In this document: positions 5,329 to 64,000 of the stretch, in pieces
Position numbering within the stretch: the stretch's first letter is position 1
How the letters are laid out: each line of letters begins with the position of its first letter
Source of the DNA: Saprospiraceae bacterium
Lineage (GTDB): Bacteria > Bacteroidota > Bacteroidia > Chitinophagales > Saprospiraceae
Length of the DNA stretch: 64,000 nucleotides
Direction of reading: 5' to 3'
Assembly: GCA_027080725.1 (NCBI GenBank)
Contig: JALWRC010000043.1
Span: forward strand, 1-64,000
Made by a program: the position numbers and the translations under genes
The notes under the pieces: generated by a model
What the model was told of the DNA's origin: nothing
Databases searched by the model: none
What the model saw: only the letters and a program-made list of their open reading frames with translations

Positions 5329-5333
5329 ATCTA

Positions 5334-5486
5334 GTGCTCCACGCAGAAAATAACTACAGTATAAAGTGTACAGACGCAATGCATTGCGTCTTCTATCTTC
5401 TCCTGACCCTTCGTTGCTCAAACAGTCATTATGCTATGGCATAACTCCCGTTTGAGCGCCTCGTGCCCCACGCAAGAAATAAGTAG
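5334..5486. repeat. Palindromic repeat element, copy 1
   Basis: This is a copy of a roughly 150-base non-coding repeat. Its core is the hairpin GCTCAAACAG / C(C/T)GTTTGAGC at 5416-5457, with inner arms ATTATGCT and GGCATAA. The element is bounded by imperfect direct repeats (GTGCTCCACGCAGAAAATAA and GTGCCCCACGCAAGAAATAA). It contains an additional perfect 20-base palindrome at 5372-5391, not found in the other copies. Related copies lie at 5599-5770 and 62807-62970. Confidence 0.7.
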
Positions 5487-5514
5487 ATATAATAGGCGAA
5501 GTTATTTTTTATTT

Positions 5515-5843
5515 AGTGTCTGCCGGAAAACTATCAAATTTTATGAAATGAGAGATTTTGGATGAGCTTTTTCGTTTTTCGAAACGAAGTGATGTTAAGT
5601 GCTCCGCACAGAAAAAAACTACCCATATACCCTCGCTCTTTTCTCCTGACTCTTCGTTGCTCAAACAGTCATTATGCTACAGCATAACTCCTGTTTGAGC
5701 GCCTCGATTCAGCAAAAAAACTGCTTCGGTTGCTAAGGGTATCTATTTCATACACGGAGCACTTGGGTATCAGTGAGTTGAGAAAAATAAAAAGATCGCC
5801 AAAAGATACATTTCTAATTTTGAAGAGCTTTCTGGCAGGCACT
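5515..5843. repeat. MITE-like element with terminal inverted repeats, carrying a nested hairpin element
   Basis: The left end AGTGTCTGCCGGAAAACT and the right end, read inverted as AGTGCCTGCCAGAAAGCT, form imperfect terminal inverted repeats. The sequence matches the element at 54252-54412 almost throughout. The exception is a block of about 170 bases at 5599-5770 in the middle, absent from the other copy. That block is a second copy of the GCTCAAACAG hairpin repeat (hairpin at 5659-5700), bounded by AGTGCTCCG and CGGAGCACT. No protein is encoded. Confidence 0.7.
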
Positions 5844-61901: not shown

Positions 61902-62423
61902 ATGCAAAAGTATTTATCTTTCCCTATTCTCACAATATTCGCCCTTGTAAATTGGGTACTTTTTACGGATGACGCAGGAGCGTTCCGGATTTTAACTCCG
62001 GCAAAATTTACACATGTTGAGAAAGAGATCCGGTCCGGTGCTATCAAAACGACCACACATACCTTCTTCACTTTTCCCACACCGGATAGCAGCCGGTATT
62101 TCTCGGTGAGTTACTACGATATCGACACATCGGGTATAGAGGTGAACGACACTTTTTCGATACAGTTACTTCAGTCGATTGAGGAGGGCCTGTTGGCTTC
62201 TTTTGATGCGGATAAGGCCTATTCTGCGCCGTTGGAACTCCGGCGAGGTACAGGGATCATGTTTCGGGCAGGTTATAACGAATCCCGCAATGTCATGAAA
62301 GCACAAATTCGCTTTTATCCCCCAAGAGTATTCGTACTCCAGGTACTTTTGCCGCATAGGGAAGCGATGAGCAGGGATGCAGAGCGCTTTTTTCATTCAT
62401 TTGAATATTTGGGAGTCCGGTAA
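61902..62423 (+). CDS. Exported PsbP-like/DUF1795-like hypothetical protein
   Basis: The 173-residue protein has an N-terminal hydrophobic segment (YLSFPILTIFALVNWVLF). Its single mixed alpha-beta domain pattern (FRILTPAKFTHVEKEI..THTFFTFPTPDSSRYFSVSYYDID..LLASF..MFRAGYNESRNVMKAQIRFYPPRVFVLQVLLP..ERFFHSFEYL) resembles Bacteroidota exported proteins of the PsbP-like group. The role is unknown. It shares a 17-base divergent promoter region with the WG-repeat lipoprotein and lies just upstream of tRNA-Arg. Confidence 0.6.
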   Translation: MQKYLSFPILTIFALVNWVLFTDDAGAFRILTPAKFTHVEKEIRSGAIKTTTHTFFTFPTPDSSRYFSVSYYDIDTSGIEVNDTFSIQLLQSIEEGLLASFDADKAYSAPLELRRGTGIMFRAGYNESRNVMKAQIRFYPPRVFVLQVLLPHREAMSRDAERFFHSFEYLGVR

Positions 62424-62454
62424 GCCATTCGTCTTACAAAAAACGGCGGTAATG

Positions 62455-62485
62455 ATTGTTCAATTCAACACTATTGCTATCTTTG
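62455..62485 (+). promoter_or_regulatory. Promoter of tRNA-Arg
   Basis: ATTG at 62455-62458 and TATCTTTG at 62478-62485 are 19 bases apart, a close fit to the Bacteroidota consensus. tRNA-Arg begins 16 bases after the -7 box. Confidence 0.65.
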
Positions 62486-62501
62486 CGTTCCGTTTAAAAA
62501 T

Positions 62502-62578
62502 GGCTCCGTAGCTCAGCTGGATAGAGCAACTGACTTCTAATCAGTAGGTCGCAGGTTCGAATCCTGCCGGAGTCACCA
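62502..62578 (+). tRNA. tRNA-Arg (anticodon TCT), CCA encoded
   Basis: The acceptor GGCTCCG pairs with CGGAGTC (one G-T pair), discriminator A, and CCA is encoded at 62576-62578. The anticodon loop CTTCTAA on an ACTGA/TCAGT stem gives TCT. The other tRNAs in this window do not encode CCA. The 3' end of this gene is repeated twice downstream. Confidence 0.95.
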
Positions 62579-62750
62579 GAGAATGCGCATAAGAGATTCG
62601 ATAGAATCGTTTGAAAGGGAACGAGCTAAAAATGCAAATCCCATTTGCATTTTGGTGAGTGACATTTCAAACGCCGACGAAGGAGGCTTATGCGCATTTT
62701 GACCTTGGACTACAATAGGATCATCAAAGATAATCCTGCCGGAGTCACCA
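62579..62750. repeat. tRNA-end-bounded palindromic unit 1 (172 bases)
   Basis: The unit follows tRNA-Arg and ends with a copy of the tRNA 3' end (AATCCTGCCGGAGTCACCA, 62732-62750). It holds three nested inverted arms: ATGCGCATAAG/CTTATGCGCAT (62583 and 62687), GTTTGAAA/TTTCAAAC, and AAAATGCAAAT/ATTTGCATTTT around a CCC loop. No protein is encoded. The repeat unit length is 172 bases, tRNA end to tRNA end. Confidence 0.8.
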
Positions 62751-63081
62751 GAGAATGCGCATAAGAGATTCGTAAGAATCGTTTGAAAGGGAACGAAGCG
62801 AAGAGCTCCGGAAAAAAAAATAACGCTCCATATAATCTCGCTCTTTCTCCCTGACTCTTCGTTGCTCAAACAGTCATTATACTACGGCATAACTCCTGTT
62901 TGAGCGCCTCGATTCAGAGAAAAATAGCTTCGGTTGCTATGGCCGTTACTTCATTCCCGGAGCTCTGAGCAAATCCCATTTGCTCTTCGGTGAGTGACAC
63001 TTCAAACGCCGACGAAGGAGGATTATGCGCATTTTGACCTTGGACTACAATAGGATCATCAAAGATAATCCTGCCGGAGTC
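62751..63081. repeat. tRNA-end-bounded palindromic unit 2, with nested insert
   Basis: This is a second copy of the unit in the same orientation, again ending with a tRNA-Arg 3' fragment (AATCCTGCCGGAGTCA at 63067-63081). The outer arms are conserved (62755 and 63022). The innermost arm is GAAGAGC/GCTCTTC in place of AAAATGC, keeping its pairing by compensatory change. A block of 164 bases is inserted in this innermost arm. Confidence 0.8.
62807..62970. repeat. Palindromic repeat element, copy 3, nested in unit 2
   Basis: This is homologous to the blocks at 5334-5486 and 5599-5770, with the same GCTCAAACAG / CTGTTTGAGC hairpin (62864-62905) and the same flanking TGACTCTTCGTT and GCGCCTCGATTCAG. 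The ends read GAGCTCCGG and CCGGAGCTC. GAGC lies at both junctions and may be a target duplication. Confidence 0.75.
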
Positions 63082-63084
63082 ATA

Positions 63085-63250
63085 TGCGGCCTGCCAAGCT
63101 TCAATTGCCGGACATCTTCGGCGTCTTTTGCCCCTGAGCTTCGTTAAAAATACTCGCCGTAGCTACGGCTACACCTGCGTTTTTTGCCTCGCTCAGACAC
63201 AAAATACGCTCCAATCTTCTCCGGCATTCAAACGTTGGTAGGCCACGAGA
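63085..63250. repeat. Long imperfect inverted repeat (third hairpin type)
   Basis: GCGGCCTGCCAAGCTTCAAT at the left pairs imperfectly with the end of the stretch (inverted: GTGGCCTACCAACGTTTGAAT), giving a stem spanning about 165 bases. The centre contains a further stem, CCGTAGCTACGG. The layout (CTTCGTT before the stem, GCCTCG after) parallels the GCTCAAACAG element although the sequence differs. Confidence 0.65.
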
Positions 63251-63325
63251 AAGCGCATAAGAGATTCGTAAGAATCGTTTGAAAGGGAACGAGCTAAAAG
63301 AGCTCCGGAAAAAAAATAACGACAT
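63251..63325. repeat. Truncated third copy of the tRNA-associated unit plus element end
   Basis: GCGCATAAGAGATTCGTAAG through GGGAACGAGC repeats the left half of units 1 and 2. It is followed directly by GAGCTCCGGAAAAAAAATAA, the left end of the nested hairpin element. The rest of both elements is missing. Confidence 0.7.
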
Positions 63326-63354
63326 TAGCATGTGTAGTAATTCGGCGCGGAGCA

Positions 63355-63610
63355 CTAAGAACAGGGTCTGAGAATGGCAAGTACCTCGACAGTTGGATAC
63401 GATGTCGATTGCGATATTGCATCCGGAAAGGATGGAAGAAACCAAAACGAAGCTACCGCGCCTTTAGATAATTAGGCCTTAACCAAACCATAGCCAGGCA
63501 ATTCAGCTACTCGCGTTTGAGCGATTGGCGAACCTGTTACAGCCTGTCCCGCCTTCAAAGCGCGAAGGCCCGTAGGTACAGTGGTACTCCCTTTGGCGTC
63601 ACAGGTCGTG
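63355..63610 (+). pseudogene. Group II intron reverse transcriptase/maturase, C-terminal remnant
   Basis: In the frame of GGC 63376, translation gives ENGKYLDSWIRCRLRYCIRK, continuing GWKKPKRSYRAFR, a stop (TAA at 63469), then LGLNQTIARQFSYSRLSDWR, TCYSLSRLQSAK. This matches the X/thumb-type maturase (GIIM) domain at the C-terminus of group II intron-encoded proteins. A stop codon interrupts it and the RT domain is absent, so it is a remnant. An intron 3'-end-like sequence follows at 63576-63662. Confidence 0.7.
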
Positions 63611-63662
63611 AAAGGGCTGAGGTAAACTCCGTGTGAGGTTACCTCACTTTACTCGATTAGCG
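63576..63662 (+). repeat. Group II intron 3'-end fragment, plus-strand copy
   Basis: This is the 87-base partner of 5242-5328 (inverted). It contains the hairpin GTGAGGT-T-ACCTCAC, as in domain VI, followed by TTTACTCGATT, as at bacterial group II intron 3' ends. It lies directly after the maturase remnant, which supports the identification. Confidence 0.55.
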
Positions 63663-63762
63663 TTTTTTTTTATTTCTTCTTCTTTGTCAAAAAGTATAGT
63701 ATTGATAATCAATTAATTAAAATTCAAATCACGCTTTCCATCAAATAACCATCAAATAAGAA

Positions 63763-64000
63763 TCAAGCCCAAAATGGAATATATTTTTTGTATTTTCTTG
63801 ATTTACTTTCCGGTGCATCTTCTTTAATCACTTGTGCCATCAAAGTCTCCTTGATTATTCGTGATGCAATTGCCGCATTTTTCCTTTCAATCTTGAATCT
63901 TTCTCTTAATGATTGATTTGTCATCTTATCATTGGAAACATACTTCAAACAACAATGCTGATAGCATGCTCGAATTTTATCTGCCTTATCCATTTGCCTT
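63763..64000 (-). CDS. AlbA_2-type putative ATP-/DNA-binding protein, C-terminal part (partial)
   Basis: The frame is open to the window edge, so only the last 79 or so residues are present. The sequence (DKADKIRACYQHCCLKYVSND, MTNQSLRERFKIERKNAAIASRIIKE, and the end RKYKKYIPFWA) matches the C-terminal winged-helix part of AlbA_2 domain proteins. These are often annotated as putative transcriptional regulators or ATP-dependent DNA helicase-like proteins, and many end in a K-Y-x-P-x-W-A motif. The N-terminal AlbA_2 domain lies outside. Confidence 0.75.
   Translation of the reverse strand, partial: RQMDKADKIRACYQHCCLKYVSNDKMTNQSLRERFKIERKNAAIASRIIKETLMAQVIKEDAPESKSRKYKKYIPFWA

Follow-up and report, generated by a model that had tools for sequence, protein, structure and literature searches.

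Repeats that trail a tRNA gene are known from Escherichia coli, where the tyrT distal repeats, associated with rtT RNA, form tandem units of about 175 nt behind the tRNA in two to three copies, each of which opens with some 19 nt from the 3' end of that tRNA, and where the release of an RNA from the tRNA transcript is the defining trait of rtT. To our knowledge, tandem repeats with tRNA ends are known from this one E. coli operon only. In the Islander work, mobile DNA is described as commonly docking at the 3' ends of tRNA and tmRNA genes, the typical mark of tDNA islands being a displaced piece of the RNA gene. The trailer of a tRNA transcript can also act as an RNA of its own, as outlined for 3'ETS-leuZ (PMC7154689).

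Here we consider a locus in a stretch of 64,000 nt of contig C43 of genome G000, a Saprospiraceae bacterium (this whole stretch is called the window below). By computation we find there, and behind other tRNA and tmRNA genes, a family of units with a preferred position behind the RNA gene, a fold that is kept with covariation and a strand bias, copies of the gene end and a tandem arrangement. The likeness to the tyrT repeats is direct, as tandem units follow a tRNA gene and each carries the tRNA 3' end; unlike in E. coli, the fold and the tail are here conserved across a family that follows tRNA-Arg, tRNA-Ser, tRNA-Ala and tmRNA genes in many species. Going by layout, the units may be a variant of such tRNA-trailing repeats, with a putative transcript. 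3'ETS-leuZ presumably differs from them in being single copy, without a repeat of the tRNA end and of unrelated sequence; the likeness is the role of a tRNA trailer as an RNA of its own, which the units would share if they are transcribed (PMC7154689). With tDNA islands, as characterised in the Islander work, the units share the target genes, an intact RNA gene, a displaced 3' fragment at the far end (in the window and, at 12 nt or more, in 19 of 48 arrays) and occasional tandem arrays, but they differ in that they hold neither integrase nor genes, measure about 80-170 nt instead of kilobases and keep a fold. REP/RAYT palindromes and MITEs are likewise short non-coding palindromes (see PMC3733652), whereas the unit is bound to the ends of RNA genes and is not scattered through the genome.

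Rfam release 15 gave no match at gathering score over the units, either in the window (cmscan of 62400-64000, E up to 5) or at the loci of five other members (E up to 1), the best match below threshold being lactis-plasmid with 41.5 of 70 bits in locus L150. We found no description of such units in the literature, judged from titles and the openings of abstracts, and a structured element at tRNA and tmRNA ends is apparently undescribed so far.

The array behind tRNA-Arg(TCT)

The gene for tRNA-Arg(TCT) with encoded CCA (62502-62578 by tRNA call; forward strand, as are all array features below unless stated) anchors a tandem array in which the opening 16-19 nt of each unit correspond to the 3' end of the tRNA. 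The repeat start AATCCTGCCGGAGTCACCA is found at 62560 and 62732, and AATCCTGCCGGAGTCA at 63067. An earlier note on this DNA had proposed two full copies and one partial copy of a 172-nt unit behind the tRNA, and these three coordinates agree with it, with the correction that the true start lies inside tRNA-Arg(TCT) and not downstream of it. Sequence and repeat comparison place unit 1 at 62560-62731; it is 172 nt long, and its first 19 nt are the 3' end of the tRNA itself. Its core is predicted to fold from 62579 to 62700, with an outer stem P1 (62579-62593 paired with 62687-62700), a side hairpin H1 with the tip GATA (62595-62608), a central hairpin H2 (62609-62672) and a weak third arm (62673-62686). 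The conserved tail of unit 1, of the form TTTTGACCTNNG N8 AGGATCA..TAATCCT, lies at 62697-62737 (58.1 bits with a tail model that includes this sequence) and contains a T-arm-like hairpin at 62717-62737 according to the tail alignment and model; this tail and that of unit 2 (63032-63072, 58.1 bits with the tail model) had been overlooked.

By repeat comparison, unit 2 (62732-63066) is of the same 172-nt type and owes its length of 335 nt to a GCTCAAACAG-type palindrome, P, inserted in its left inner arm at 62803-62966 (repeat search, flanks by eye). The flanks of P join as GAA plus GAGCAAATCCC, without target duplication, and so rejoined they are the arm that pairs with its partner in unit 2 (both by eye). 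Unit 3 is partial, its 3' half and tail being missing: a third copy of the tRNA 3' end at 63067-63082 (sequence and repeat comparison) is followed by a second palindrome of a dispersed family, H (63083-63246, repeat search), which stands between this copy and the unit body, then by the 5' half of the unit (63247-63299, 94% over 53 nt) and by a shortened P (63300-63357), the 5' end of which is as in the P of unit 2 and the 3' end of which, GCGCGGAGCACTA, is as in dispersed P. A dispersed S element outside the unit family, the short form of which is found behind accessory genes, occupies 63354-63660 (strand unassigned).

Units 1 and 2 fold much better than shuffled sequences (z -6.1 for 62579-62731, with none of 200 shuffles as good; z -5.7 for 62751-63066, with none of 100), so that the concentric arms described in the earlier note are present beyond chance, but as a junction with side hairpins and not as simple palindromes. 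The innermost arms had been said to differ between the two units and yet to stay self-complementary, and indeed three pairs have changed on both sides, from T-A to A-T and twice from A-T to G-C (by eye). Exchange of whole hairpins, one of two reasons then offered, is unnecessary to explain these differences; the other, selection for the fold, is borne out across the family by the pairing of arms with their own partner, by covariation across genomes and by the excess of G·T over A·C mismatches.

The unit, P in unit 2 and H in unit 3 make up the three nested classes of palindrome that had been recognised as anchored at the tRNA. Judged by their sequence matches, P and H are dispersed repeats separate from the 172-nt unit, and in this stack they look like MITEs: P, with the ends TAGTGCTCC...GGAGCACTA, has at least 45 matches in G000, this one included (E up to 1; 40 of 123 candidates scored), and H has 7 near-complete ones, likewise counting this one. 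The proposal that all three classes are one element moved in trans thus finds no support, the unit belonging to another family, bound to tRNA and tmRNA genes. On contig C105, which carries a second array of G000, H is again found at the junction of tRNA copy and unit. Unrelated palindromes occupy this junction between tRNA 3' end and unit start at 63083 of the window and at loci L149 and L090, H in two cases and another palindrome in genome G041, and the junction may be an insertion hot spot.

Targeting of hairpin tips by P was considered and rejected, as only 2 of 28 flanks exceed the 95th percentile of swapped flanks as inverted repeats; P nonetheless lies within unit 2, within an S element (L065, C43 65851-66019) and within another palindrome (window 5540-5830). 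In the region 5331-5830 of the window, P forms the centre of a palindrome from a further family, E (by eye), which adjoins an S element; the composite of E and P is seen again on contigs C7 and C74. Head-to-tail pairs of P sharing CTAG occur at L087 (C28) and L086 (C11), which hints at CTAG as the junction of P. S elements were located at 63529-63660, at 66020-66106 and 67326-67450 of C43, and on C22, C13 and C18 (L065-L068). By eye, they lie at ten sites 0-250 nt past the stop codon of an accessory gene and in the same orientation, the preceding genes being Fic-like (below the NCBIfam cut-off) or, by eye, DNA-binding, SRPBCC-like, zeta-like and toxin-antitoxin-like. This layout resembles that of gene cassettes, but the genome holds no integron integrase above cut-off; the S pattern had 0 matches in viral contigs.

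Distribution and host genes

By BLAST-type search, the sequence of the 172-nt unit is restricted to this locus within G000 and has no match in 297 other genomes of the family. The sister species G041 carries two tandem units of other letters and the same build at the matching tRNA-Arg(TCT), which is 100% identical to that of the window over 75 of 77 nt; the tail of the first reads TTTTGACCTNGG..AGGATCATC....ATAATCC, followed by the tRNA 3' end, and the tail of the second is decayed. Uniqueness to this locus, a point raised in the earlier note, therefore holds for the letters, which in G000 occur only here, and fails for the fold, which returns in G041 and, by tail matches, in further genomes of the family.

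Across 396 genomes from the order, a tail pattern was found at 41 sites and its backward control at 7; among the 41 is the C105 array of G000, the repeated end of which equals the end of tRNA-Arg(ACG) in G041. A covariance model of the tail (41 positions, built from 18 sequences) gave a best match with E under 1e-7 in 44 of the 398 genomes of the family (hand count from the table), 10 of which supplied model sequences and match by construction, while 34 did not. At a loose E of 0.01 the model lists 306 of the 398 genomes, which we treat mostly as chance because, in a sample of 395 genomes of the phylum, only 3 pass 1e-7 (all in the family and all in the model; next best 5.4e-7) and the weak loci are without tRNA or tmRNA (0 of 11 weak phylum matches had one near). 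Genome G305, from another family of the same order, also has the unit, and no strong members were seen in the sampled genomes outside the family and G305.

Searches of other collections were mostly negative. A 20-base pattern had one alphaproteobacterial match in genome contigs and 0 in viral contigs; when plasmids were searched with tRNA plus units, the best 20 of 676 records matched the tRNA end of the query alone; and the exact tail pattern had 4 matches in a viral collection, none with a tRNA within the fetched 5.5-11.5 kb.

From 123 model matches in 70 fetched sources we kept 112 units in 68 arrays, after removal of six duplicates of places already counted and of the five weakest matches; the strong match in G273 was left out. 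An array contains six units at most, spaced at almost constant periods, for example about 84, 117 or 160-162 nt. ARAGORN places an RNA gene upstream on the same strand in 44 of the 68 arrays, namely tRNA-Arg in 31 (anticodons TCT, TCG and ACG), tRNA-Ser in 6 (TGA and GGA), tRNA-Ala in 3 (GGC) and tmRNA in 4; such host genes are classic docking genes for islands. The tail lies 102-133 nt behind the RNA gene in 38 of the 44, and at 66, 252, 254, 279, 403 and 547 nt in the other six. Ten further arrays have a T-arm at 127-139 nt, which by eye belongs to a tmRNA end, to a tRNA-Arg with an intron remnant or to a tRNA cut by the contig end. Of four such loci tested, one has Rfam support for a group I intron, below the gathering score: a weak match to RF00028 (35.7 bits, gathering score 50) lies inside a unit-followed tRNA-Arg at L128 1099-1306 (G023, contig C113), and the similar-looking remnants of L193, L194 and L212 had no Rfam match. 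The remaining 14 arrays, sorted by eye, comprise four that open with a copy of an RNA-gene 3' end (L127, L199, L209, L211), four cut by the contig end (L149, L187, L189, L204) and six with neither an RNA gene nor an end copy upstream (L123, L160, L213, L216, L218, L228).

Behind the tail of first units, the 3' end of their own gene is repeated exactly over at least 12 nt in 19 of 48 cases and is shorter or missing in 29. Several different RNA genes carry units in one genome, partly with their own gene end repeated. In G305, a half unit made up of the third hairpin, outer arm and tail (L154 2557-2625, C9:64056) closes a 1.9-kb stretch behind the full unit at tRNA-Arg(TCT), and this stretch holds the gene of a leucine-rich-repeat-like surface protein (by eye).

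Fold and strand

Fold statistics were computed on the 47 non-redundant first units with a usable distance. All 47 have z below -3 against shuffles (median -6.5), and the outer stem is present in the lowest-energy fold of 43 and absent in 4. It closes a junction of at least two branches in 33 of the 47, with three branches (a four-way junction) in 24, and a single arm in 10; this is the systematic count, an earlier folding of 20 segments having given several without a junction, partly from badly chosen starts. The outer stem scores 26.0 with its own partner and 13.3 with swapped ones, 28 of 47 reaching at least the 99th percentile, and unit length is near-constant, with a median of 118 nt.

The tail hairpin tracks the T-stem of its host: AGGAT/ATCCT is found mostly behind tRNA-Arg, and GGGAT/ATCCC mostly behind tRNA-Ser, tRNA-Ala and tmRNA. 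It is paired in 94.6% of cells, with 136 cells changed on both sides, and its covariation is 0.389, against 0.141 when shuffled (0 of 500 as high) and 0.010-0.078 when slid. The covariation alignment, A2, was fitted to the model structure, and the same pairs are visible in a MAFFT alignment. Two of five covariation measures fail to beat shuffles, namely double-change pairs (5 versus 4.1; 60 of 500) and pair types (15 versus 14.9; 312 of 500).

Single mismatches in the helices, read on the tRNA strand, are G·T in 36 cases and A·C in 5 (p 8e-7; 77 non-redundant units, symmetric rule), whereas flanking DNA gives 25 and 37. The G·T mismatches are spread over 28 loci and the A·C ones over 4, none of the 36 G·T falls within the six conserved bases that end the outer stem, and an earlier energy-based count gave 27 and 4; the tail hairpin alone has a weak strand bias (G·U 11, A·C 6). 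This excess indicates that the tRNA-carrying strand is the one whose pairing is kept, be it as RNA or as one strand of DNA. A terminator-like hairpin stands at the start of 29 of 49 first units, and of 13 of 49 when these are read from the opposite end. Three-base loops are GNA in 16 of 50 cases, versus 13 of 179 in a control with a different stem length that also contains the units; GNA and GNNA loops were rejected as proof of folded DNA, being suggestive only, and the G·T excess fits RNA at least equally. A tRNA-like minihelix cut by RNase P was likewise rejected as a general rule, since many members lack the acceptor copy or have it in decayed form, so that it cannot be required.

Origin of the units

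No reading frame, recombinase or transposase belonging to the units was found in a search that covered tyrosine recombinases, Y1 transposases, integron integrases and GIY-YIG nucleases, and the reading frames behind the array of the window include no integrase. The two kinds of enzyme named in the earlier note do occur in G000, but the one Y1 transposase is of IS200 type (140.2 bits, cut-off 55; 35.4 bits as RAYT, cut-off 80) and the tyrosine recombinases, two PF00589 matches, are both XerC/XerD-like, only Xer-type enzymes of this class being found in the genome. With the Y1 protein below the RAYT cut-off and the units at one locus by sequence, the array does not fall among REP/RAYT or IS200/IS605 elements. 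We also rejected a simple dispersed MITE, as the BLAST-type search finds only this locus and none in the 297 other family genomes, and an integron array with attC cassettes, as the best TIGR02249 score in G000 is 76.8 bits (on the Xer proteins) against a cut-off of 265.

A neighbouring GIY-YIG nuclease was rejected as a general mover, relatives of the G305 protein being present in only 7 of 68 array loci (L118, L150, L151, L186, L197, L214 and L217); such a nuclease might act on units in trans. Small GIY-YIG genes were observed beside tRNA or tmRNA genes at L091 (G014), L095 (G002), L118/L154, L150, L151 (G305), L186 (G133), L197 (G158), L217 (G101), L214 (G272) and L158 (G000, contig C40), the last being the one short GIY-YIG reading frame of G000, which adjoins two tRNAs. 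In G014 the gene stands between the broken 5' half of a tRNA-Arg and a whole copy, and in G272 a decayed gene stands between tRNA-Ser and a unit tail.

No pair of empty and filled sites was seen within one species. Between genomes, the closest unit pairs are same-gene pairs (0.96, 0.86 and 0.82 identity). Within-genome pairs at different genes have a mean of 0.60 (n=15), versus 0.56 for the same gene and 0.55 for different genes between genomes, the gene labels of eight loci being given by eye; the best within-genome pair, at 0.76, joins two Ser genes of G087.

We read the units, with a probability of roughly one half, as a structured, non-coding element that enters at the 3' ends of tRNA and tmRNA genes, multiplies behind them and acts as a single strand. 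The element lies directly behind the RNA gene, which it leaves whole; its strand is predicted to form an outer stem that spans about 118 nt and in most cases closes a three-way or four-way junction. It ends in the conserved tail, that is TTTTGACC and then a hairpin copying the host T-stem, followed in part of the cases by the displaced copy of the gene's own 3' end. Entry would take place by site-specific insertion at the T-arm or 3' end of the gene, helped in trans, and multiplication in place by tandem duplication would follow, because the tRNA-end copies can serve as direct repeats. The presence of the 3' end copy in 19 of 48 first units and its decay in 29 fit insertion at the gene end and decay of the displaced copy. 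The working form would be a single strand of the sense of the tRNA, most simply an RNA made by read-through transcription that starts at the promoter of the tRNA, and the first hairpin would in many cases serve as the tRNA terminator as well. We infer insertion in trans and transcription, and likewise any benefit or cost to the cell, from this pattern. For insertion in trans the odds are about even, with vertical inheritance of a trailer as the main rival, because same-gene pairs are the closest and the enzyme was not found. That the units are a self-spreading satellite without protein seems rather doubtful; it would use a folded single strand (RNA or DNA) that mimics the host T-stem to home to the T-arm in tRNA and tmRNA genes, and its arrays would grow while the genes stay unbroken.

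According to the main rival, the units are a structured sRNA or trailer that is inherited vertically, co-transcribed with certain tRNAs or with tmRNA and cut out by the tRNA-processing enzymes; it would have no mobility, and copies would arise solely where the tRNA-end repeats lead to tandem duplication, as they do in tyrT/rtT of E. coli. In its favour are the strand-specific acceptance of G·T, a length that hardly varies (median 118 nt), the terminator-like first hairpin (29 of 49, against 13 of 49 from the other end), the tandem arrays and the closeness of same-gene units between related genomes. It accounts less well for strong matches that are patchy within one genus (for example g77 and g83, where assemblies are incomplete), for units at several RNA genes of one genome, partly with their own gene end repeated, and for the small set of hosts (Arg, Ser, Ala and tmRNA), so that we regard it as possible, with the balance against it.

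Larger islands or phages that integrate into tDNA could also have left the units behind, or use them as a landing pad, the palindrome then being part of the attachment region. The displaced RNA-gene fragment, a hallmark of tDNA islands in the Islander work, would suit this origin, as would tmRNA among the hosts and the half unit of G305, which closes a gene-bearing stretch 1.9 kb downstream; but no integrase lies beside the array of the window and its genome yielded Xer-type ones only, the units conserve their fold and length, and the 4 viral matches to the tail pattern come without a tRNA in the fetched 5.5-11.5 kb, which makes it improbable. Functionless DNA palindromes, symmetrical through template switching (quasi-palindrome correction) and multiplied by slippage, appear very unlikely: P and H in the stack are indeed dispersed palindromes and the paired changes between units 1 and 2 could arise by template switching, but this process predicts no strand preference where 36 G·T stand against 5 A·C, and the tail motif and its distance to the RNA gene are conserved.

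The family has apparently been overlooked because its letters change while its fold stays, and BLAST-type searches of intergenic DNA can miss structured families of this kind (0 of 297 genomes by sequence, versus 43 other genomes of 398 by tail model). Such a family of structured units would offer a natural system for studying the effects of trailers on tRNA and tmRNA maturation, and for asking whether an element without genes can home to tRNA genes.
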